64,000 nt of DNA from contig NZ_JASE01000005.1 of the NCBI RefSeq assembly GCF_000622325.1, positions 558,001 through 622,000 of the forward strand. The letters run 5' to 3'. A model generated the notes under the pieces. It saw only the letters and a program-made list of their open reading frames with translations. It searched no databases and was not told the DNA's origin. The stretch's first letter is position 1. Each line of letters begins with the position of its first letter. Source of the stretch: Sulfitobacter geojensis. Its GTDB lineage: Bacteria > Pseudomonadota > Alphaproteobacteria > Rhodobacterales > Rhodobacteraceae. This document shows positions 54,353 to 63,974 of this stretch, one piece after another. A program made the position numbers and the translations under genes.

Positions 54353-55525
54353 ATGAAGAACGTTGTTATTGCCGGAGCGGCCCGCACGCCGATGGGCGGC
54401 TTTCAAGGTGCCTTTGACGGTCTTAGCGCCTCTGCGCTTGGGGGGCATGCGATCAAGGCTGCACTGGACAACGCCAAAACTGCCACGGTGCAAGAAGTAT
54501 TGATGGGGTGTGTTCTGCCTGCCGGACAGGGTCAGGCACCGGCACGTCAGGCGGGTTTCGCTGCAGGTCTGGGCGAAGAGGTGCCCGCCACAACGCTGAA
54601 CAAAATGTGCGGATCGGGCATGAAAGCGGCGATGATCGGTTTTGACCAGATTGCATTGGGCCATACAGATGTGATGGTCGCGGGCGGCATGGAAAGCATG
54701 ACCAGCGCACCATATGTCCTGCCGAAAATGCGCGGCGGCGCACGTCTGGGCCACGCTGCAGTGGTCGATCACATGTTTCTTGACGGCTTGGAAGATGCTT
54801 ATGACAAGGGCCGCCTGATGGGCACTTTTGCCGAAGATTGCGCCGAAACCTTCCAGTTTACACGCGAAAAGCAGGATGAATATGCGCTGGCTTCTCTGTC
54901 GCGCGCGCTAGAGGCGCAATCAAACGGTGCGTTTGCCGATGAAATCGCCAGCGTCGAAATGAAAACGCGCAAGGGCAATGTGACGGTAAACACAGACGAA
55001 CAGCCCGCCAATGCCCGTCCCGACAAAATCCCGCAGCTGAAACCGGCGTTTCGCGAAGGGGGCACAGTAACGGCAGCCAATTCTTCCTCCATCTCGGACG
55101 GTGCCGCCGCCCTTGTGCTTGCCTCTGAGGATGCCGCAAACGCGCAAGGCATGAACATCCGTGCGCGTATCCTTGGACATGCCAGCCACGCGCAGGCACC
55201 GGGTCTTTTTACCACCGCACCCGTGCCTGCCGCGCAAAAGCTGCTGGAACAAATCGGTTGGAGCAAAGACGACGTCGACCTGTGGGAAGTGAACGAAGCC
55301 TTTGCGGTTGTCCCCATGGCTTTCATGCATGAGATGGGTCTTGATCACGCCATCGTAAACGTCAACGGCGGGGCTTGTGCCCTGGGCCATCCCATCGGTG
55401 CATCCGGTGCCCGTATCATGGTGACCTTGCTTAACGCGCTGGAGAAACGCGGTCTGAAACGTGGCATTGCGGCCATCTGCATCGGCGGCGGCGAAGGCAC
55501 AGCCATTGCGATTGAACGCGTCTAG
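54353..55525 (+). CDS. acetyl-CoA acetyltransferase (thiolase)
   Basis: A 390-residue biosynthetic-type thiolase that condenses or cleaves acyl-CoA. The nucleophile is Cys86 in NKMCGSGMKA; the His and second Cys are in GGACALGHPIGASG and CIGGGEGTAIAI. Length is typical of PhaA-like acetoacetyl-CoA thiolases. No PHB genes are adjacent. It is preceded by a good AAAGGAGA ribosome-binding site. The 31-bp repeat begins at its stop codon. Confidence 0.95.
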   Translation: MKNVVIAGAARTPMGGFQGAFDGLSASALGGHAIKAALDNAKTATVQEVLMGCVLPAGQGQAPARQAGFAAGLGEEVPATTLNKMCGSGMKAAMIGFDQIALGHTDVMVAGGMESMTSAPYVLPKMRGGARLGHAAVVDHMFLDGLEDAYDKGRLMGTFAEDCAETFQFTREKQDEYALASLSRALEAQSNGAFADEIASVEMKTRKGNVTVNTDEQPANARPDKIPQLKPAFREGGTVTAANSSSISDGAAALVLASEDAANAQGMNIRARILGHASHAQAPGLFTTAPVPAAQKLLEQIGWSKDDVDLWEVNEAFAVVPMAFMHEMGLDHAIVNVNGGACALGHPIGASGARIMVTLLNALEKRGLKRGIAAICIGGGEGTAIAIERV

Positions 55526-55578: not shown

Positions 55579-56037
55579 ATGAAAGTGGATTACGATACCC
55601 TTGCCAAGTCCATCGCGTCGCTGACCGAGGGTGAAACAGACGCTGTGGCCCTCATGGCGACTGTCGCTTGTGAGGTGCACCATGCCGACGACCGGTTCGA
55701 CTGGACGGGGTTTTACCGCGTTGTCGCACCGGAACTGCTCAAGATCGGGCCTTACCAAGGGGGCCACGGCTGTCTGGTGATCCCGTTCGCGCGCGGCGTC
55801 TGTGGCGCGGCGGCGCGCACGGGCGAGGTCCAGCTGGTTGCGGATGTCGATGCCTTTCCCGGACATATCGCCTGCGCATCGTCCACACGCTCGGAACTGG
55901 TGCTGCCGGTTTTCGACGGGGCGGGCAGCCTGATCGGGGTGTTCGACATCGACAGCAACCAACCGGATGCCTTTGACACCTTGGACGCGACGGCGTTGAC
56001 GGAAATATTGCAGCGCGTCTTCGCTCAAGCAAAATAG
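55579..56037 (+). CDS. msrC: free methionine-(R)-sulfoxide reductase
   Basis: A 152-residue GAF-domain protein of the fRMsr type, reducing free Met-R-SO with thioredoxin. Three cysteines, Cys65 (GGHGCLVIPF), Cys75 (RGVCGAA) and Cys99 (HIACAS), have the same 10 and 24 residue spacing as the redox cysteines of E. coli fRMsr, which supports function and not just fold. The stop codon is the first base of the regulatory palindrome before the XRE gene. Confidence 0.93.
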   Translation: MKVDYDTLAKSIASLTEGETDAVALMATVACEVHHADDRFDWTGFYRVVAPELLKIGPYQGGHGCLVIPFARGVCGAAARTGEVQLVADVDAFPGHIACASSTRSELVLPVFDGAGSLIGVFDIDSNQPDAFDTLDATALTEILQRVFAQAK

Positions 56038-56116
56038 CGATTCCGTGAAATAATTCTGGATTTTTTCACGAACCTGTTGTTACGTGAAAAGCAGAGGCAT
56101 TTTTTCACGGAATCGC
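56037..56116. promoter_or_regulatory. nested palindromic operator before the XRE-cupin gene
   Basis: The whole gap is one 80-base palindrome. Perfect 14-base arms at 56037-56050 and 56103-56116 enclose a second inverted pair (56063-56070 with 56083-56090). Four half-sites result: CGTGAAA at 56044 and 56083, TTTCACG at 56064 and 56103, about 19-20 bases apart, making two tandem copies of CGTGAAA-N13-TTTCACG. The last half-site adjoins the ribosome-binding site. The regulator it precedes is the obvious candidate binder. Confidence 0.82.
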
Positions 56117-56117
56117 A

Positions 56118-56690
56118 ATGCACCATAGTTTGCCAGACACGCCAAAAACGCTTGGTGCCGACCTTAGAGCGCTGCGCAAGTCGCGCGGCCTGACGCTCGC
56201 GGATCTGGCGGAAACGCTGGGCCGGTCGGTGGGCTGGCTCAGTCAGGTCGAACGCGATATTTCCGATCCTTCGATCACGGATCTGCGGGACATTGCGGCC
56301 AAGCTGGATGTTTCGGTATCCATGCTGTTTCGCCACACTGCCGCACCGGCGCATGAGGCGGGATTTGTCGTGCGCAAAGGGTCCCGCCGGACCATCGGAT
56401 CTCAGGTCGCAGGATTGGTCGAGGAACTTTTGTCCCCCGACCTGACCGATGATTTTGAAATGGTGCACTCCACTTTTGCTCCGCACAGCCGCATCAAAGA
56501 ACCGGTGACACGCCCCACACAAGAGGTCGGTTATGTGCTGTCAGGCCAGTTGGAGGTCGAGATTGCGGGTGTGACCCACTTGATCAACCCCGGTGACAGT
56601 TTCCGCATCCGCGGCGAGGCGTTTCGCTGGGCCAACCCCTTTGGTGCACCTGCGGTGGCCATCTGGGTCATCGCGCCGCCAGTGTATTGA
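56118..56690 (+). CDS. XRE-family regulator with cupin sensor domain
   Basis: A 190-residue regulator: helix-turn-helix at about 12-65 (LGADLRALRKSRGLTLADLAETLGRSVGWLSQVERDISD) and a cupin domain at about 110-185 (VGYVLSGQLEVEIAG, NPGDSFRIRG) that likely binds a small ligand. Members of this architecture often control catabolic operons and themselves. It is the first gene after the palindromic operator and 33 bases upstream of the GFA gene, so it probably regulates the whole N-demethylation cluster. Ligand unknown. Confidence 0.93.
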   Translation: MHHSLPDTPKTLGADLRALRKSRGLTLADLAETLGRSVGWLSQVERDISDPSITDLRDIAAKLDVSVSMLFRHTAAPAHEAGFVVRKGSRRTIGSQVAGLVEELLSPDLTDDFEMVHSTFAPHSRIKEPVTRPTQEVGYVLSGQLEVEIAGVTHLINPGDSFRIRGEAFRWANPFGAPAVAIWVIAPPVY

Positions 56691-56723
56691 ATGAACCATG
56701 CAACCCGCCAGAAAGGATCACAA

Positions 56724-57107
56724 ATGATCAAAGGAAGTTGCCTTTGTGGCGGTGTGACCTTCGAACTTGTTGGACCGTTGCGCAATTCCGTCGCTTGCCA
56801 CTGTATTCAGTGCCGCAAAACCAGCGGGCACTACGTATCGGCCACCCAAGTTTCCGCCGAACGGTTACGCATCATCAAGGACGACACCCTGCAGTGGTAC
56901 CAGTCCAGCCCCGAAGCTGCGCGCGGGTTCTGCAACATCTGCGGCTCTTCCCTGTTCTGGCGGCATGACGGGGACAACGGCGCGACTTCGGTCATGTCCG
57001 GCACCCTTGACGCGCCCACGGGCATCGCAACCGAAAAGCATATCTTCGTCGCTGACAAGCGCGACTATTACACCATCGCTGACGGCCTGCCGCAGCAAGA
57101 CCAATAA
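56724..57107 (+). CDS. GFA-family (glutathione-dependent formaldehyde-activating-like) protein
   Basis: A 127-residue zinc protein of the GFA (CENP-V/GFA) family. The cysteine pattern is complete: Cys6 and Cys8 (SCLCGG), Cys25, Cys27 and Cys30 (ACHCIQCRK), Cys70 and Cys73 (FCNICGSS). Gfa was described as a glutathione/formaldehyde adduct enzyme; many homologues have other roles. Start at 56724 has AAAGGA before it; an in-frame ATG at 56691 overlaps the regulator stop. Its place before two demethylating flavoproteins fits formaldehyde handling. Confidence 0.92.
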   Translation: MIKGSCLCGGVTFELVGPLRNSVACHCIQCRKTSGHYVSATQVSAERLRIIKDDTLQWYQSSPEAARGFCNICGSSLFWRHDGDNGATSVMSGTLDAPTGIATEKHIFVADKRDYYTIADGLPQQDQ

Positions 57108-57120
57108 CGGAGCATTCACA

Positions 57121-59568
57121 ATGGCAGATTTCCCAACAACGGCCCGTGTGGTCATCATCGGCGGCGGCGTCGTCGGCACATCAACGCTTTACCACCTCGC
57201 CAAAGCGGGCTGGAAAGACTGCGTTCTGGTCGAGAAAAACGAACTGACGGCGGGCTCCACGTGGCACGCGGCGGGTAACGTTCCAAACTTTGCAGGTTCA
57301 TGGGCGGTGATGAACATGCAGCGCTACTCGGCGGCCATGTACCGGACGCTGGGCGAAGACGTTGACTATCCGATGAACTACCACGTGACAGGTGCGATCC
57401 GTCTGGCCCATACCAAAGAGCGGATGCAGGAATTCGAAAAGGTCGCCTCGATGGGGCGCTATCAGGGTTTGCAAATGGACATCTGCACGCCGGCCGAACT
57501 TAAAGAGCACAACCCGTTTATGGAAACACATTCCCTTGCAGGCGGTCTTTGGGACCCGCTTGATGGTGATATCGATCCGGCACAGCTGACCCAAGCGTTG
57601 GCAAAAGGCGCGCGCGAAGCGGGCGGGCGGATTGAACGGTTCTGCCCTGTGACAGGTGTAGACCGCGATGGCGACGAGTGGATCGTTAAAACCGAAAAAG
57701 GCGAGATCCGCTGCGAATTCGTGGTCAACTGTGCGGGTTATTATGCCCAGCGGGTGGGCGAAATGTTCAAACCCTTTGGCGGGCGTACCGTGCCAATGGT
57801 GACCATGTCGCACCAGTACTTCCTGACAGAGCCAATCGCCGAGCTTGAGGCATGGACCAAGGAAAAAGGGCATAAAATGCCGATGATCCGCGACGTGGAT
57901 GTCAGCTATTACTTGCGTCAGGATAAATACGGCCTGAACCTCGGCCCCTATGAGCGCAACTGTCAGGCAGCCTGGGTCAAACCAGACGATCCGATGCCTG
58001 AAGATTTCAGTTTCCAGCTTTATCCCGACGATCTGGAACGCCTCGAATTCTATATCGAGGACGCGATGGAACGTGTGCCGGCGCTTGGCACAGCGGGTGT
58101 CGGCCGAAATATCAACGGCCCCATTCCATACGCCCCCGACGGCCTGCCGATGATCGGCCCGATGCCGGGTGTGAAGAACGCGTTCGAAGGTCATTCGTTT
58201 ACCTTCGGCATCGCGCAGGGCGGCGGGGCTGGCAAAGTCCTGTCGGAATGGATCATGCACGGTGAAACCGAACTGGACATGTGGGCCGTCGATCCGCGCC
58301 GCTACACCGATTACACCGACCACGATCACTGCCTTGCCAAGGCGCTGGAAACCTACGGACACGAATACGCCATGCACTTCCCGCACCACGCATGGCCTGC
58401 CGGACGCGACAAGAAACTGTCGCCCGTGCATGACAAGATCATCGCGGCAGGCGGGCAGATGGGGGCCTACAACGGCTGGGAACGCGCCAACTGGTTTGCG
58501 AAAGACGGCGATGACACCTCCGAAGAGGCGACCCAGACATGGGACCGTAACGGCCCTTGGTCGATCCGCGTAAAGGAAGAAGTCGAGGCCGTGCGCGATG
58601 GCGTCGGTGTGCTGGATCTGCCCGGTTTCTCACGCTTTAATCTGTCCGGTGAGGGGGCGGCCGAATGGCTTCGCGGGCGCATTTCCGGCGCCTTGCCCAA
58701 AGTCGGACGCATGAACCTTGCCTATTTCCCCGACAGCCGCGGTCGTATCCTGACGGAGATGTCGGTGATGCGCCACGGGGAGGATAGCTTTACCCTAATC
58801 ACCGCCGCGCTTGCGCAATGGCACGACTTCGAACTGCTTAAGAAAAATCTCCCCAACGGGCTTAGCCTGACCGATCATACGACCGAATACTCGACATTGA
58901 TTGTCACGGGTCCCAAATCACGCGAGCTGTTCGAAGCGCTGGATACCCAAGCAGATCTGGGTGCTTCCTGGCTTTCAACCCAGCCTGCAAAAGTTGCCGG
59001 TACGGACTGCGCCTTGGCGCGGGTTTCTTTTGCCGGTGAACTGGGATGGGAAATCCATGCCGCGAACGCGGAAATTCCTGCGCTTTACGACGCAGTGACG
59101 GGTGCGGGCGCAAAACCCTTCGGGATGTTTGCCCTGAATTCCATGCGCATCGAAAAGGGCTATCGCGCGTGGAAGGGCGATCTGTCCACCGACTATTCCC
59201 TGATCGAGGCAGGGTTGGACAGGTTTATCAAGTTCGACAAGCAGCAGGATTTTCCGGGCAAGGCTGCGTTGCAGGCGGAAAAGCAGGCCGGCAGCAAGAA
59301 ACGTTTCGTCACGATGACAGTTGATGCGGGCGATCAGGACGCGCCCTATATGTCGACCGTGTGGCACCAAGGCGAGGTCGTGGGCGAAACCACCAGCGGG
59401 GATTGGGGCTACCGCATCAATAAATCCGTGGCGCTCGGCACCATTCGTGCCGATCTGGCGGTGGCCGGTACCGAAGTTGAGATCAACATCTTCGGCAAGA
59501 TGTGCAAAGCGACCGTGCAGCCCGACCAACCCCTTTGGGACCCTGAAAACGAAAGGATCCGTGCATGA
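57121..59568 (+). CDS. DMGDH/SARDH-like flavoprotein with GcvT domain, copy 1
   Basis: An 815-residue flavoprotein resembling dimethylglycine and sarcosine dehydrogenases. N-terminal FAD motif VIIGGGVVG (11-19), His49 in GSTWHAAG (the position of covalent FAD attachment in mammalian DMGDH), then the DAO-type domain to about 430. The C-terminal half is a GcvT/aminomethyltransferase-like folate domain (ALNSMRIEKGYRAW, ENERI end). Expected to oxidise an N-methyl group and pass it to tetrahydrofolate. The frame is open upstream to 56767 inside the GFA gene, but the ATG at 57121 with CGGAG is the start. It overlaps the next gene by ATGA. Confidence 0.93.
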   Translation: MADFPTTARVVIIGGGVVGTSTLYHLAKAGWKDCVLVEKNELTAGSTWHAAGNVPNFAGSWAVMNMQRYSAAMYRTLGEDVDYPMNYHVTGAIRLAHTKERMQEFEKVASMGRYQGLQMDICTPAELKEHNPFMETHSLAGGLWDPLDGDIDPAQLTQALAKGAREAGGRIERFCPVTGVDRDGDEWIVKTEKGEIRCEFVVNCAGYYAQRVGEMFKPFGGRTVPMVTMSHQYFLTEPIAELEAWTKEKGHKMPMIRDVDVSYYLRQDKYGLNLGPYERNCQAAWVKPDDPMPEDFSFQLYPDDLERLEFYIEDAMERVPALGTAGVGRNINGPIPYAPDGLPMIGPMPGVKNAFEGHSFTFGIAQGGGAGKVLSEWIMHGETELDMWAVDPRRYTDYTDHDHCLAKALETYGHEYAMHFPHHAWPAGRDKKLSPVHDKIIAAGGQMGAYNGWERANWFAKDGDDTSEEATQTWDRNGPWSIRVKEEVEAVRDGVGVLDLPGFSRFNLSGEGAAEWLRGRISGALPKVGRMNLAYFPDSRGRILTEMSVMRHGEDSFTLITAALAQWHDFELLKKNLPNGLSLTDHTTEYSTLIVTGPKSRELFEALDTQADLGASWLSTQPAKVAGTDCALARVSFAGELGWEIHAANAEIPALYDAVTGAGAKPFGMFALNSMRIEKGYRAWKGDLSTDYSLIEAGLDRFIKFDKQQDFPGKAALQAEKQAGSKKRFVTMTVDAGDQDAPYMSTVWHQGEVVGETTSGDWGYRINKSVALGTIRADLAVAGTEVEINIFGKMCKATVQPDQPLWDPENERIRA

Positions 59569-60446
59569 GCGATATCACCCTGCTGGATGGCGGCATGGGG
59601 CAGGAATTGATCCACCGCGCCGGCGACCGGCCCACGCCTCTTTGGTCTACCCAAGTGATGCTGGAACACCCTGGGCTGGTCAGCGAAGTCCACCGTGATT
59701 TCACGCAAGCCGGGGCAACCATTGCCACGACGAACACCTATGCCATCCATCGCGACCGGTTGGTTGACACCGATGTGGCGGATCGCTTTGCCGACCTGCT
59801 GACAATGGCCATCGCCGAGGCGCGCACCAGTGGCTCGGCGCGTATTGCGGGGGCCATCGGCCCCATCGCCGCCTCTTATCGCCCTGACCTGCATCCCGAC
59901 GCGGACACCGGTGCGCCGATTTACGCAGAGATTGCACAGATGATTGCGCCCGCCTGCGACATGTTGCTGTGCGAAACCGTGGTGTCGGTCACCCATGCCG
60001 AAAGCGTGCTGCGCGGGGCTGCTGCGGGCGACAAACCGGTCTGGCTGGCCGTCAGTGTGGATGACCGTGACGGCACCAAACTGCGTTCGGGCGAACCTTT
60101 GTCGGCCATTCTGCCCTATGCCCAAGCTGGTGCCGCCGCGGTGCTGGTCAACTGTTCCGCCCCGGAGGCGATCCTGCCCGCGCTTGATATTCTGGCGCAA
60201 GCGGGCATTCCGTACGGTGCTTATGCCAACGGGTTTGAACAGATCACTGAGGGTTTTCTGGAAGCCAAGCCAACGGTTGATGCATTGACCCTGCGCAATG
60301 ATTTCACCCCCGATGCTTATGCCGATCACGCGATGGCCTGGGTTGACCAGGGGGCCACAATCATTGGCGGCTGTTGCGAAGTATCCCCCGCGCATATCGC
60401 CGAAATCGCCCGCCGGCTAAAAGCCGCAGGGCACACCATTGTCTAG
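59565..60446 (+). CDS. homocysteine S-methyltransferase family, BHMT-like
   Basis: A 293-residue zinc-dependent methyltransferase of the betaine-homocysteine/homocysteine S-methyltransferase fold. The zinc cysteines are Cys197 (LVNCSAPEA), Cys270 and Cys271 (GGCCEV), matching the three of BHMT. LLDGGMGQELI is the family N-terminus. Possible methyl donors include glycine betaine, DMSP or S-methylmethionine; betaine fits the flanking dimethylglycine-type dehydrogenases. The product would be methionine plus dimethylglycine. Overlaps the upstream gene by four bases. Confidence 0.9.
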   Translation: MSDITLLDGGMGQELIHRAGDRPTPLWSTQVMLEHPGLVSEVHRDFTQAGATIATTNTYAIHRDRLVDTDVADRFADLLTMAIAEARTSGSARIAGAIGPIAASYRPDLHPDADTGAPIYAEIAQMIAPACDMLLCETVVSVTHAESVLRGAAAGDKPVWLAVSVDDRDGTKLRSGEPLSAILPYAQAGAAAVLVNCSAPEAILPALDILAQAGIPYGAYANGFEQITEGFLEAKPTVDALTLRNDFTPDAYADHAMAWVDQGATIIGGCCEVSPAHIAEIARRLKAAGHTIV

Positions 60447-60469
60447 AACTCCCGCCCCGCGACACCATT

Positions 60470-60515
60470 TTTGCGCACCTGAGGGTGGATATCATTTTGC
60501 GCACCACCGGTGCGA
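60470..60515 (+). repeat. direct repeats and dyad before the second flavoprotein gene
   Basis: TTTTGCGCACC occurs twice, at 60470-60480 and 60496-60506, 26 bases apart in the gap after the BHMT-like gene. The second copy runs into a CGCACC/GGTGCG dyad ending at 60515. This could be a regulator site or a short RNA stem; no T-run follows. It suggests partly separate control of the downstream pair. Confidence 0.5.
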
Positions 60516-60534
60516 CGTCTAAAGGATCAGCTAA

Positions 60535-62979
60535 ATGTCTAACGTTCCGTCCCATGCCCGCGTTGTCATCATCGGTGGTGGCGTCATCGGGTGTTCTGTT
60601 GCCTATCACCTGACAAAACTGGGGTGGAAAGATGTGGTTCTGCTGGAACGCAAACAGCTGACCTCGGGCACGACGTGGCATGCGGCGGGGTTGATTGCCC
60701 AGCTGCGCGCGACCGCGAATATGACCAAGCTGGCGAAATATTCACAGGAGCTTTACGGCAATCTGGAGGATGAAACAGGTGTCGCCACCGGCTTCAAACG
60801 CTGTGGTTCGATCACCGTTGCGCTGACGGACGAGCGGCGCGAAGAAATCTACCGTCAGGCGGGCATGGCCCGTGCTTTCGGTGTGGATGTAGAAGAGATC
60901 AGCCCGAAAGAAGTGCTTGAGAAATACGAGCATCTGAATATCGAAGGGGTGACCGGCGCGGTATACCTCGACAAGGACGGGCAGGGCGATCCTGCGAACA
61001 TCGCACTGGCCTTGGCCAAGGGTGCGCGTCAACGCGGGGCGCAGGTGATCGAGCGGACCAAAGCCACCGGCGTGACCCGTGAGGGGCGGCGCATCACCGG
61101 TGTTGACTGGGAGCAGGGGAGCGAAACCGGCCACATCACTTGCGATCATGTGGTGAACTGCGGTGGCATGTGGGGGCATGAGGTCGGGCGGATGCTGAAC
61201 ACCAACGTCCCCCTGCAAGCCTGCGAGCATTTCTATATCGTGACCGAAGCGATCGCAGGGTTGAAACAACTGCCCGTCCTGCGCGTGCCCGACGAATGCG
61301 CCTATTACAAAGAAGACGCCGGCAAAATGCTGCTTGGCGCGTTCGAACCGCTGGCAAAGCCATGGGCGCTTGACGGTATCCCCGCCGATTTCGAGTTTGA
61401 CCAACTGCCCGAAGATTTCGACCACTTCGAACCCATTCTCGAAGCGGCAGTAGAACGTTTGCCGATGCTGGCCGACGCGGGCATTCATACCTTCTTTAAC
61501 GGTCCTGAATCCTTTACCCCCGATGATGCCTACCACCTTGGCCTTGCACCAGAGATGGACAATGTCTGGGTCGCCGCCGGTTTCAACTCTATCGGTATCC
61601 AGTCGGCGGGCGGGGCGGGCATGGCGCTGGCGCAGTGGATGGAAGATGGCGCGAAACCTTTTGATCTGGGTGATGTGGACATCAATCGCATGCAGCCGTT
61701 TCAGGGCAATAAAACCTATCTTGCCGAGCGGTCCAAAGAAACGCTGGGCCTGCTGTATGCCGATCATTTCCCCTATCGCCAAAAGGCGACGGCGCGGGGT
61801 ATCCGGCGCACGCCGTTTCATCACCACCTGCTTGAGCGGGGTGCGGTGATGGGCGAACTTGCCGGTTGGGAACGCGCCAACTGGTTCGCCCGCGACGGGC
61901 AAAACGCGGCTTATGAATACAGCTGGCAACGGCAGAATTTCTTTGACAACATCCGCGATGAACATATGGCCGTGCGCGAAAATGTCGGCATGTACGACAT
62001 GACGTCTTTCGGCAAGATCCGTGTCGAAGGACCGGACGCCGAGGCCTTCCTGAACTATGTCGGCGGTGGCGATTATTCGGTGCCGAACGGCAAGATCGTT
62101 TATACCCAGTTCCTGAATGAAAGGGGCGGGATCGAGGCGGACGTGACGGTGACCCGCCTGACCGATACCGCCTATCTGGTCGTGACCCCTGCCGCCACGC
62201 GACTGGCGGACCAGACATGGATGATGCGCAACAAAGGCGATTTTAATGTGGTGATCACCGACGTGACCGCTGGCGAAGGGGTGCTGGCGATCATGGGCCC
62301 ACGGTCGCGCGAATTGCTTAACCTCGTTTCTCCCAATGATTTCTCGAATGCGACCAACCCCTTTGGCACGGCGCAAGAGATCGAAATCGGTATGGCTGTC
62401 GCCCGCGCACATCGCGTGACCTATGTGGGCGAACTGGGGTGGGAAATCTATGTCCCGTCAGACATGTGCGGCCACGTCTTCGAAACGCTGGCAGAGGCGG
62501 GCGCGGATATGAACCTCAAGCTGTGTGGCATGCATATGATGGACACCTGCCGCATCGAAAAAGGGTTCCGCCATTTCGGCCATGACATCACTGCCGAGGA
62601 TCATGTGATGGAAGCGGGCCTTGGCTTTGCCGTGAAAAAGGACAAGCCCGACTTTATTGGGCGCGCCGCCGTGCTGGATAAGCAGGAACAGGGCCTGAAC
62701 GCGCGTATGCTCCAGTTCAAACTGACCGATCCCGAACCGCTGCTGTATCACAACGAACCGATCGTACGGAACGGCGAGATCGTCGGCTACCTGTCCTCCG
62801 GTGCTTATGGTCATGCATTGGGCGGGGCGATGGGGCTGGGTTATGTGCCGTGCAAAGGCGAAAGCGCGGCAGATGTATTGGCATCATCCTTTGAAATCGA
62901 CGTGGCCGGCGTGCGCGTCAAAGCCGAAGCATCGCTGAAACCGATGTACGACGCAAAATCCGAACGGGTGAAAGTGTAA
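60535..62979 (+). CDS. DMGDH/SARDH-like flavoprotein with GcvT domain, copy 2
   Basis: An 814-residue paralogue of the copy-1 protein with the same layout: VIIGGGVIG FAD motif (11-19), His49 in GTTWHAAGL, DAO-type domain, then a GcvT-like domain (MMDTCRIEKGFRHFGHDI) ending in a conserved basic tail. The N-terminal AGLIAQLRATANM stretch is closer to typical bacterial dimethylglycine dehydrogenases than copy 1 is. Two paralogues suit two successive demethylations, such as dimethylglycine to sarcosine to glycine; which does which is unknown. AAAGGA precedes the ATG. Confidence 0.93.
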   Translation: MSNVPSHARVVIIGGGVIGCSVAYHLTKLGWKDVVLLERKQLTSGTTWHAAGLIAQLRATANMTKLAKYSQELYGNLEDETGVATGFKRCGSITVALTDERREEIYRQAGMARAFGVDVEEISPKEVLEKYEHLNIEGVTGAVYLDKDGQGDPANIALALAKGARQRGAQVIERTKATGVTREGRRITGVDWEQGSETGHITCDHVVNCGGMWGHEVGRMLNTNVPLQACEHFYIVTEAIAGLKQLPVLRVPDECAYYKEDAGKMLLGAFEPLAKPWALDGIPADFEFDQLPEDFDHFEPILEAAVERLPMLADAGIHTFFNGPESFTPDDAYHLGLAPEMDNVWVAAGFNSIGIQSAGGAGMALAQWMEDGAKPFDLGDVDINRMQPFQGNKTYLAERSKETLGLLYADHFPYRQKATARGIRRTPFHHHLLERGAVMGELAGWERANWFARDGQNAAYEYSWQRQNFFDNIRDEHMAVRENVGMYDMTSFGKIRVEGPDAEAFLNYVGGGDYSVPNGKIVYTQFLNERGGIEADVTVTRLTDTAYLVVTPAATRLADQTWMMRNKGDFNVVITDVTAGEGVLAIMGPRSRELLNLVSPNDFSNATNPFGTAQEIEIGMAVARAHRVTYVGELGWEIYVPSDMCGHVFETLAEAGADMNLKLCGMHMMDTCRIEKGFRHFGHDITAEDHVMEAGLGFAVKKDKPDFIGRAAVLDKQEQGLNARMLQFKLTDPEPLLYHNEPIVRNGEIVGYLSSGAYGHALGGAMGLGYVPCKGESAADVLASSFEIDVAGVRVKAEASLKPMYDAKSERVKV

Positions 62980-63047
62980 CAGGTACAATCTAACCCTTTC
63001 GGGGGCCGCCGCTTTGCCCTACCTCCTTGGGCAAACGGAGACCCCCG

Positions 63048-63974
63048 ATGCGCAACCCTGACAGTCTGCCCCCCAAGGCCAACGAAGACACGCCGCAAGG
63101 GCTGGCCTTTGCGCTGACGGCCTATGTGATGTGGGGGTTTCTGCCGCTCTATATGAAGCTGCTGTCGCATATTTCGCCCGCCGAAGTGGTCACACATCGC
63201 ATCCTGTGGTCCTTGCCCATCGCTGCCGTTGTGCTGATCATCCTGCGCCGAACCGACGCCCTGCGTGAGGCGCTGCGCAGCCCGCGTATGCTGGCCATGG
63301 GCTGTGTCACCGCCGCGCTGATTTCGATCAACTGGGGCATCTATGTCTATGCAATCGCGACCGGCAACGCGCTGGCGGCTTCTTTGGGATATTACATCAA
63401 CCCCTTGTTCAGCGTCTTTCTGGCGGCTGTGTTCCTGGGCGAACGCCCCAACCGCGCCCAGATGGTCGCCATTGCACTCGCTGCCCTTGCGGTTCTCGTG
63501 ATTGCCGTGGAAGCGGGGCAGGTGCCATGGGTCGCTTTGGCGCTCACCCTGTCTTGGGGGTTCTATGCGCTTGCCAAAAAAAGCCTGCCCATCGGACCCA
63601 ATCAGGGCTTTCTGCTTGAGGTGCTGATCCTGCTGATCCCCGCATTGGGCTATTTTGCCTACCTCACTTCCACCGGCCAATCCCACTTTTCCCTCGACTT
63701 TGACCGCGACAGTTGGCTGCTGATTGGTTGTGGTCTTGTTACCGCCGTGCCGTTGATGATCTATGCCAACGGCGCGAAACTGCTGCGGCTGTCGACCATT
63801 GGCGTGCTGCAATACATCGCCCCGACCATGATTTTTCTGGTGGCTGTATTTGTGTTCGACGAACCGTTTGGCAGGGCGCGCATGATTGCGTTCCCGATGA
63901 TCTGGCTTGCGCTGATCATCTATACCACCTCGATGCTGCGCCAGATGCGACAGGCGCGTGCAGACGTGGGTTGA
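63048..63974 (+). CDS. rarD: RarD-type EamA family transporter
   Basis: A 308-residue inner-membrane transporter of the drug/metabolite superfamily, RarD type, with ten hydrophobic helices (GLAFALTAYVMWGFLPLYMKLL, INWGIYVYAIATGNALAASLGYYINPL). Substrate not known; RarD proteins are described as chloramphenicol-sensitivity permeases in enterobacteria. The ATG at 63048 has GGAG upstream. Sixty-eight bases after the second flavoprotein, so it may export or import a substrate of the cluster, or be unrelated. Confidence 0.92.
   Translation: MRNPDSLPPKANEDTPQGLAFALTAYVMWGFLPLYMKLLSHISPAEVVTHRILWSLPIAAVVLIILRRTDALREALRSPRMLAMGCVTAALISINWGIYVYAIATGNALAASLGYYINPLFSVFLAAVFLGERPNRAQMVAIALAALAVLVIAVEAGQVPWVALALTLSWGFYALAKKSLPIGPNQGFLLEVLILLIPALGYFAYLTSTGQSHFSLDFDRDSWLLIGCGLVTAVPLMIYANGAKLLRLSTIGVLQYIAPTMIFLVAVFVFDEPFGRARMIAFPMIWLALIIYTTSMLRQMRQARADVG

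Follow-up and report, generated by a model that had tools for sequence, protein, structure and literature searches.

How far can a single gene cluster carry a methylated amine towards glycine, and what controls it? The question is raised by positions 56,118 to 63,974 of a 64,000-nucleotide stretch of the Sulfitobacter geojensis genome (assembly GCF_000622325.1, contig NZ_JASE01000005.1, positions 558,001 to 622,000), referred to here as the window. An original prediction, made from the sequence alone, proposed that these genes form a self-contained demethylation cluster, possibly leading from glycine betaine or a related methylated amine to glycine. Our analysis makes it probable that they form a self-regulated operon converting dimethylglycine and sarcosine to glycine, with a homocysteine methyltransferase as an optional component. 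The dimethylglycine/sarcosine part of the predicted pathway thus held, but the glycine betaine step, a role for betaine-homocysteine methyltransferase (BHMT) and a formaldehyde-handling GFA protein did not. Glycine betaine is a major marine osmolyte, and its bacterial conversion to energy and ammonium is an active question. All six predicted genes (a regulator, a GFA gene, two dehydrogenases flanking a methyltransferase, and a permease) are intact on the + strand, and the named domains of their products exceed Pfam cut-offs. Of the overlaps said to join these co-directional genes, a single one of 4 bp, between the first dehydrogenase and the methyltransferase, is found with the start codons used, the other gaps being 13 to 88 bp; the operon is presumably read as one transcript. 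The gene set itself is a known, widespread roseobacter locus; the analysis corrects the roles of the methyltransferase and the GFA gene and adds a well-conserved private operator.

The core of the cluster is a pair of enzymes containing a flavin adenine dinucleotide (FAD)-binding DAO region and a GcvT region, dehydrogenase A (57121..59568, + strand, 815 amino acids), of the dimethylglycine dehydrogenase type, and dehydrogenase B (60535..62979, + strand, 814 amino acids), of the dimethylglycine/sarcosine dehydrogenase type. These assignments draw on domains, structure matches and alignment. Both proteins carry DAO, FAO_M, GCV_T and GCV_T_C in one chain, all four above the Pfam cut-off, and both match solved dimethylglycine dehydrogenases over nearly their full length, with 571 bits for A and 439 bits for B. 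Across an alignment of 32 sequences (A, B and 30 others), four features are conserved throughout: the histidine that links FAD, a further His and a Tyr in the active site, and an acidic residue at the folate site, which is Glu in A and Asp in B; the linkage, catalytic and folate-binding functions attached to these residues are those we assume for the family. A and B are only 31% identical and fall in two separate deep clades of the tree, which rules out a recent duplication as the source of their near-equal length. By homology, A and B would act on dimethylglycine and sarcosine.

Several related genes lie elsewhere in the same genome. Paralogues of 805 and 832 amino acids adjoin on opposite strands (C5:2112000-2124000), and the 805-residue protein is the closest to rat dimethylglycine dehydrogenase of those compared in the genome. 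A second A/B-like pair (822 and 810 amino acids) flanks a glycine-betaine-type ABC transporter and two choline-kinase-like genes (C5:3481000-3500000), possibly a separate choline/betaine-related locus. Two further loci (L020 and L021) resemble heterotetrameric sarcosine oxidase operons in their sequence starts, lengths and GcvT matches. One paralogue of this kind, the dimethylglycine dehydrogenase MED193_19144, is reported to be induced on phosphatidylcholine (PMC10132767).

The substrates assigned to A and B find their closest published support in Ruegeria pomeroyi DSS-3, in which SPO3400 and SPO3396 have been named as the dehydrogenases for dimethylglycine and sarcosine, respectively (Lidbury et al. 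2015, PMC4744692), while SPO3398 is listed as homocysteine S-methyltransferase (PMC4809877). From the gene order and this one name we infer that A, the methyltransferase and B correspond to SPO3400, SPO3398 and SPO3396. The spacing fits that read in a second R. pomeroyi strain, SZCCDBG043 (L177), where the genes after A are, in order, those of an alcohol dehydrogenase, the methyltransferase, an AraC-type regulator and B, with a GFA gene and the regulator directly before A. SPO3402 is listed as a LysE transporter (PMC4809877), unlike the arrangement in SZCCDBG043; as LysE-type exporter genes lie between the regulator and GFA genes in two other loci (L206, 8615-9232; L211, 10529-11149), DSS-3 may carry one there. 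AraC proteins occupying the same slot in R. pomeroyi and in two other loci (L209, L217) have as their best model GbdR, a regulator of choline metabolism, at 119-140 bits, below the cut-off of 480. Domains, kept residues and the match to the published R. pomeroyi genes all bear out the prediction of two folate-linked dimethylglycine/sarcosine dehydrogenase-type enzymes beside the regulator.

To place the locus we searched 295 genomes, nearly one per genus, of the taxonomic family to which the window's genome belongs (family genomes, below). A homolog of the methyltransferase (E <= 1e-40) is present in 155 of them and dehydrogenase A (E <= 1e-280, three candidates scored per genome) in 178, with one match each; 129 genomes carry both, 26 the methyltransferase only and 49 A only. 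Sixty of the 155 methyltransferase neighbourhoods, chosen over the identity range and leaning to long contigs, were sampled: 40 contain regulator, A, methyltransferase and B, three have some of regulator, A and B (one of these with a supposed B that matches at just 23% and is probably a different protein), and 17 have none. A second, named set comprised the best 80 of at least 581 confirmed relatives in public genomes, picked for similarity to the window and hence biased in its proportions; here 61 loci have all four genes, five some and 14 none. In all 40 complete sampled loci and all 61 complete named loci the four genes run regulator, A, methyltransferase, B along a single strand, a constancy that is not due to chance. 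A layout that had been called unusual is in fact common, with these genes together in 40 of the 60 family loci read.

The regulator (56118..56690, + strand, 190 amino acids) combines an XRE-type helix-turn-helix with a cupin domain (Pfam HTH_31 and Cupin_2, both above cut-off) and is a distant relative of PuuR (49.5 bits; PuuR cut-off 211). Between its gene and an upstream GAF-domain gene lie two exact palindromes of the form CGTGAAA-N13-TTTCACG, at 56044..56070 and 56083..56109, the second starting 39 bp after the first and ending 8 bp before the regulator start codon. With spacers of 6-16 considered, these are the only exact copies in the 4.23 Mb genome. Of the 295 family genomes, 73 contain the exact 27-bp pattern and none a reversed control. 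Of these 73 genomes, 70 carry A at the cut-off; in each of the other three the regulator adjoins the site, and A is truncated where the contig ends (G098), spread over two contigs (G133) or broken (G287). The broken copy consists of two pieces in different frames with the middle partly missing, in a genome that keeps the operator, regulator, methyltransferase and B. The site is beside the regulator or upstream of A in 67 of the 73: 590-3390 bp upstream of A and in its direction in 55 genomes, and just upstream of the regulator in 12 more, read from fetched loci. One of the last six has its site 3.6 kb before the methyltransferase (G212), and five are without a placement.

The same palindrome recurs in 103 regulator-upstream regions (41 from the 60-locus set, 61 named and the window's own), which are related sequences and not independent trials. 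With a spacer of 13 it is found exactly in 51, with up to one mismatch in 87 and with up to two in 98. In 20 rounds of dinucleotide shuffling, none of the 103 regions matched at up to one mismatch and at most one at two; spacers of 8 to 18 other than 13 gave 0 or 1 region at one mismatch. A second site 38-40 bp away (two mismatches) accompanies the first in 49 of the 103, and in none of the shuffles. Among 140 loci, those behind the upstream set have no exact site outside the upstream piece, and the 38 without such a piece contain no exact site. The operator is thus conserved upstream of the regulator and private to the locus, and its uniqueness and its tie to the cluster are new here; no description of the XRE-cupin regulator or its operator was found in searches of open-licence literature. 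Most simply, the XRE-cupin protein would bind the palindromes and control only this operon. The operator offers a compact, testable marker for a regulated dimethylglycine/sarcosine branch.

The methyltransferase (59565..60446, + strand, 293 amino acids) had been called BHMT-like. Model scores and residues place it as a predicted zinc-dependent homocysteine S-methyltransferase, nearer MmuM within PF02574. The best of five NCBIfam models is MmuM PRK09485 (126.9 bits, below the cut-off of 215), ahead of the bifunctional homocysteine methyltransferase model (104 bits; cut-off 453) and the BHMT model PRK07534 (60.6 bits; cut-off 338), and the R. pomeroyi ortholog ranks the models similarly. PRK07534, although named betaine--homocysteine S-methyltransferase, scores 563 bits on the MtgE-type protein of this genome (L015, 6302-7312), and is therefore a weak test of true BHMT. 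Annotations based on this model may mislead, as an MtgE-type split methionine synthase subunit matches it.

Twenty-two members of the methyltransferase family were aligned with human BHMT, MmuM, a Thermotoga methionine synthase and the MtgE of this genome, a distant alignment giving a tree that carries no support values. All 22 keep the counterparts of human BHMT D26, E159, C217, C299 and C300, which we take to be the homocysteine and zinc residues; Trp44, for which we also presume a role, is kept in the family as well. The columns of Tyr77 and of Tyr160, the latter presumably a betaine contact, hold Ala, Ser, Asn or Thr and Thr, respectively, in all 22. At these two columns MmuM has Gln and Thr, and the Thermotoga synthase and MtgE have Gly and Thr; in the tree the family branches beside MmuM, its nearest neighbour of those compared. 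Tyr77 of human BHMT hydrogen-bonds betaine (PMC3871600). With the zinc and homocysteine residues kept and the two betaine tyrosines gone, the protein probably methylates homocysteine, using a methyl donor that is not betaine, and by analogy with MmuM the likeliest donor would be S-methylmethionine. Identification as BHMT was rejected on the model scores, the donor-site residues and the published R. pomeroyi mutants described below. A PF02574 gene beside dimethylglycine dehydrogenases should not receive a BHMT annotation from its position.

The methyltransferase is also an optional part of the operon. In 19 genomes with the exact operator there is no methyltransferase at the cut-off, and in the operator stretches fetched for 18 of them, all of which keep operator and regulator, no methyltransferase match was found at E <= 1e-6. 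Regulator, A and B stand together in 14 of the 18. In two stretches the contig stops inside A or shortly beyond it, so genes missing there say little; one is without B in the 16 kb read, and one has the regulator and B without A there. Some loci without the methyltransferase have other genes between A and B: an alcohol dehydrogenase in L212 and L217, an aminotransferase in L208, and an AraC regulator in L209 and L217. The 17 sampled methyltransferase loci without regulator or dehydrogenases have a GAF-domain neighbour in 13 cases and a GFA gene in seven. The methyltransferase also has plasmid relatives in Limimaricola, Dinoroseobacter and Palleronia, and the stretches shown around them contain no annotated A/B-type dehydrogenase, indicating that the link between methyltransferase and dehydrogenases is frequent and not obligatory.

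Published mutants of R. pomeroyi show that glycine betaine loses its first methyl group through the corrinoid-dependent MtgBCD. Glycine betaine supports no growth of an mtgC mutant and is not consumed by it, whether or not methionine is added, and an mtgD mutant fails to grow on glycine betaine and is not restored by methionine; the PF02574 protein SPO1884 (MtgE) serves as homocysteine module in a split methionine synthase (PMC12478193), an enzyme type also described in Phaeobacter (Price et al. 2018, PMC5764234). The genome of the window encodes three PF06253 (MtgB-type) proteins, two pterin-binding proteins, one of which could be MtgD, and a corrinoid protein whose best model is MtgC (185 bits, below the cut-off of 370), encoded about 2.5 kb from the MtgE-type protein (PRK07534, 563 bits; cut-off 338). 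PF02574 occurs at two places in the genome, the MtgE-type gene and the cluster methyltransferase. By homology here and by the mutants in R. pomeroyi, the glycine betaine step is covered without the cluster methyltransferase. GbcA was ruled out as the first step, as the sole PF00848 protein found in the genome reaches 104 of 670 bits on the GbcA model. The claim that the cluster is self-contained from glycine betaine therefore fails: R. pomeroyi has the orthologous cluster, yet its mtgC mutant fails on glycine betaine (PMC12478193), and MtgB-, MtgC- and MtgE-type genes lie elsewhere in our genome.

In the mechanism we propose, glycine betaine would lose its first methyl group elsewhere in the genome through the corrinoid system MtgB/MtgC/MtgD. 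Dimethylglycine would next be oxidised to sarcosine, and sarcosine to glycine, by A and B, both of which would hand a one-carbon unit to tetrahydrofolate (THF) as 5,10-methylene-THF. The XRE-cupin regulator would bind the two palindromes before its own gene and so switch on this one operon, the inducer, bound by the cupin domain, being dimethylglycine or sarcosine and possibly betaine. Where present, the zinc homocysteine S-methyltransferase would make methionine from a sulfonium donor such as S-methylmethionine, not from betaine, and GFA and RarD would be loosely attached.

A number of observations weigh against this mechanism. The genome has at least six more A/B-like paralogues, and one of them, the 805-residue protein, resembles the rat dimethylglycine dehydrogenase slightly more than A does (37.9% identity, compared with 36.6% for A), so that similarity alone cannot fix the substrate. 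The sarcosine-oxidase-like loci, judged by their sequences, may perform the sarcosine step and make sarcosine oxidation by the cluster redundant. The exact operator is present in only 70 of the 178 genomes with A, so that most carry a degenerate site, another site or none, and 16 of the 103 upstream regions have no site at up to one mismatch. In this genome matches with up to two mismatches number 17, as they do in the reversed control, and only the exact pair stands out; with no further exact site in the genome, these equal counts also rule out a wider regulon for the operator. Near the operator no sigma-70-like promoter was detected, and a promoter/terminator scan gave counts below the shuffle means. 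Finally, the methyltransferase gene overlaps A by 4 bp and A is present in 129 of the 155 methyltransferase genomes, which argues that the methyltransferase serves the same pathway as A.

In a bolder version of the proposal, the XRE-cupin protein would be an undescribed dimethylglycine/sarcosine sensor whose regulon is this single operon, controlled through the conserved double palindrome, and the methyltransferase would represent a homocysteine methyltransferase of a new type, taking its methyl group from a donor tied to the pathway. We regard this version as rather unlikely; were it true, the breakdown of N-osmolytes and the supply of methionine would be linked a second time, independently of MtgE.

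An operon for some other N-methylated compound, such as an N-methyl amino acid or another betaine, is also to be considered, with A and B as shifted members of the dimethylglycine dehydrogenase family and the methyltransferase demethylating the compound. The many A/B paralogues suggest a family spread over substrates, the operator is private to the locus, and the second paralogue pair, around the glycine-betaine-type ABC transporter, could be the glycine betaine branch. The R. pomeroyi genes, however, have been published as dimethylglycine and sarcosine enzymes (PMC4744692), and GbdR-like regulators sit in the same slot of some loci; we consider such an operon unlikely. Least credible, and in our judgement very improbable, is that the methyltransferase is a BHMT and the operon alone takes glycine betaine to glycine, passing methyl groups to homocysteine, folate and formaldehyde: a three-step pathway would suit the gene order and the 4-bp overlap, 129 genomes have both the methyltransferase and A compared with 26 and 49 that have just one of the two, and earlier papers drew glycine betaine demethylation by BHMT (PMC4744692, PMC7574528), but the BHMT model gives 61 bits against a cut-off of 338 (MmuM 127), both betaine tyrosines are replaced in 22 of 22 sequences, regulator, A and B persist in 14 of the 18 fetched loci that lack the methyltransferase, and the R. 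pomeroyi mtgC mutant cannot use glycine betaine (PMC12478193), the cluster having been read in another strain of that species (L177).

The remaining genes appear peripheral. The GFA/CENP-V domain protein (56724..57107, + strand, 127 amino acids) scores 79.2 bits on PF04828 (cut-off 24.3), has no NCBIfam match and does not match TIGR02820, the model of true Gfa, at E 0.001. The model does find true Gfa, being above cut-off in 23 of the 295 family genomes, and has no match in this genome; places adjoining A in some relatives reach only about 25 bits (cut-off 234.55). The description of this protein as a formaldehyde-type GFA accordingly falls, and with it the gene as a Gfa formaldehyde step. True Gfa itself is reported not to catalyse the formation of hydroxymethylglutathione under standard conditions (PMC4682968). 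Among the complete loci, 26 of the 40 sampled and 46 of the 61 named have a GFA gene between regulator and A, and its product has a median identity to the window copy of 49%, below those of the regulator (68-69%), A (71-72%) and B (79-82%); it behaves as a loosely attached gene. The RarD-type EamA permease (about 63048..63974, + strand, 308 amino acids) scores 205.6 bits on TIGR00688 (RarD; cut-off 130.15) and 212 bits on PRK15430, below that model's cut-off of 540. RarD, found within the stretch in 16 of the 40 and 38 of the 61 complete loci, is a frequent neighbour and not a core member; together with the LysE exporters of other loci it hints at export beside the operon. Upstream of the regulator, the GAF-domain gene (55579-56037) and a thiolase gene (54353-55525) are present in 43 and 30 of the 60 loci, respectively, and also adjoin loci without the dehydrogenases. 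We take the GAF-domain protein to resemble free methionine-R-sulfoxide reductase, and a methionine-repair link to the methyltransferase is possible.

Comparison with known systems sets the cluster among related pathways. Mammalian dimethylglycine dehydrogenase (4p9s, 5l46) and Arthrobacter dimethylglycine oxidase (1pj5) share with A and B the domain order, the FAD histidine and the folate domain, and the rat enzyme is 36.6% identical to A and 30.7% to B. MmuM (5dml, from E. coli) shares with the cluster methyltransferase the zinc cysteines, the homocysteine residues, and Thr and Tyr at two donor-site columns, although its curated cut-off of 215 bits is not reached. The MtgBCD/E system (PMC12478193, PMC5764234) serves the same pathway one step upstream, with parts elsewhere in this genome by homology, but depends on a corrinoid protein and on other genes outside the cluster. 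The GbdR-controlled dgc/sox genes of Pseudomonas resemble the cluster in being a regulated route of dimethylglycine and sarcosine catabolism; they differ in that the neighbouring regulator of the cluster is an XRE-cupin and not an AraC protein, and that its enzymes are GcvT-fused. Closest of all is SPO3396-SPO3400 of R. pomeroyi DSS-3, with the same genes in the same order, as read in SZCCDBG043, and two additions, the alcohol dehydrogenase and the AraC/GbdR-like regulator; the extract of PMC4744692 makes no mention of the operator described here, the double palindrome before the regulator.

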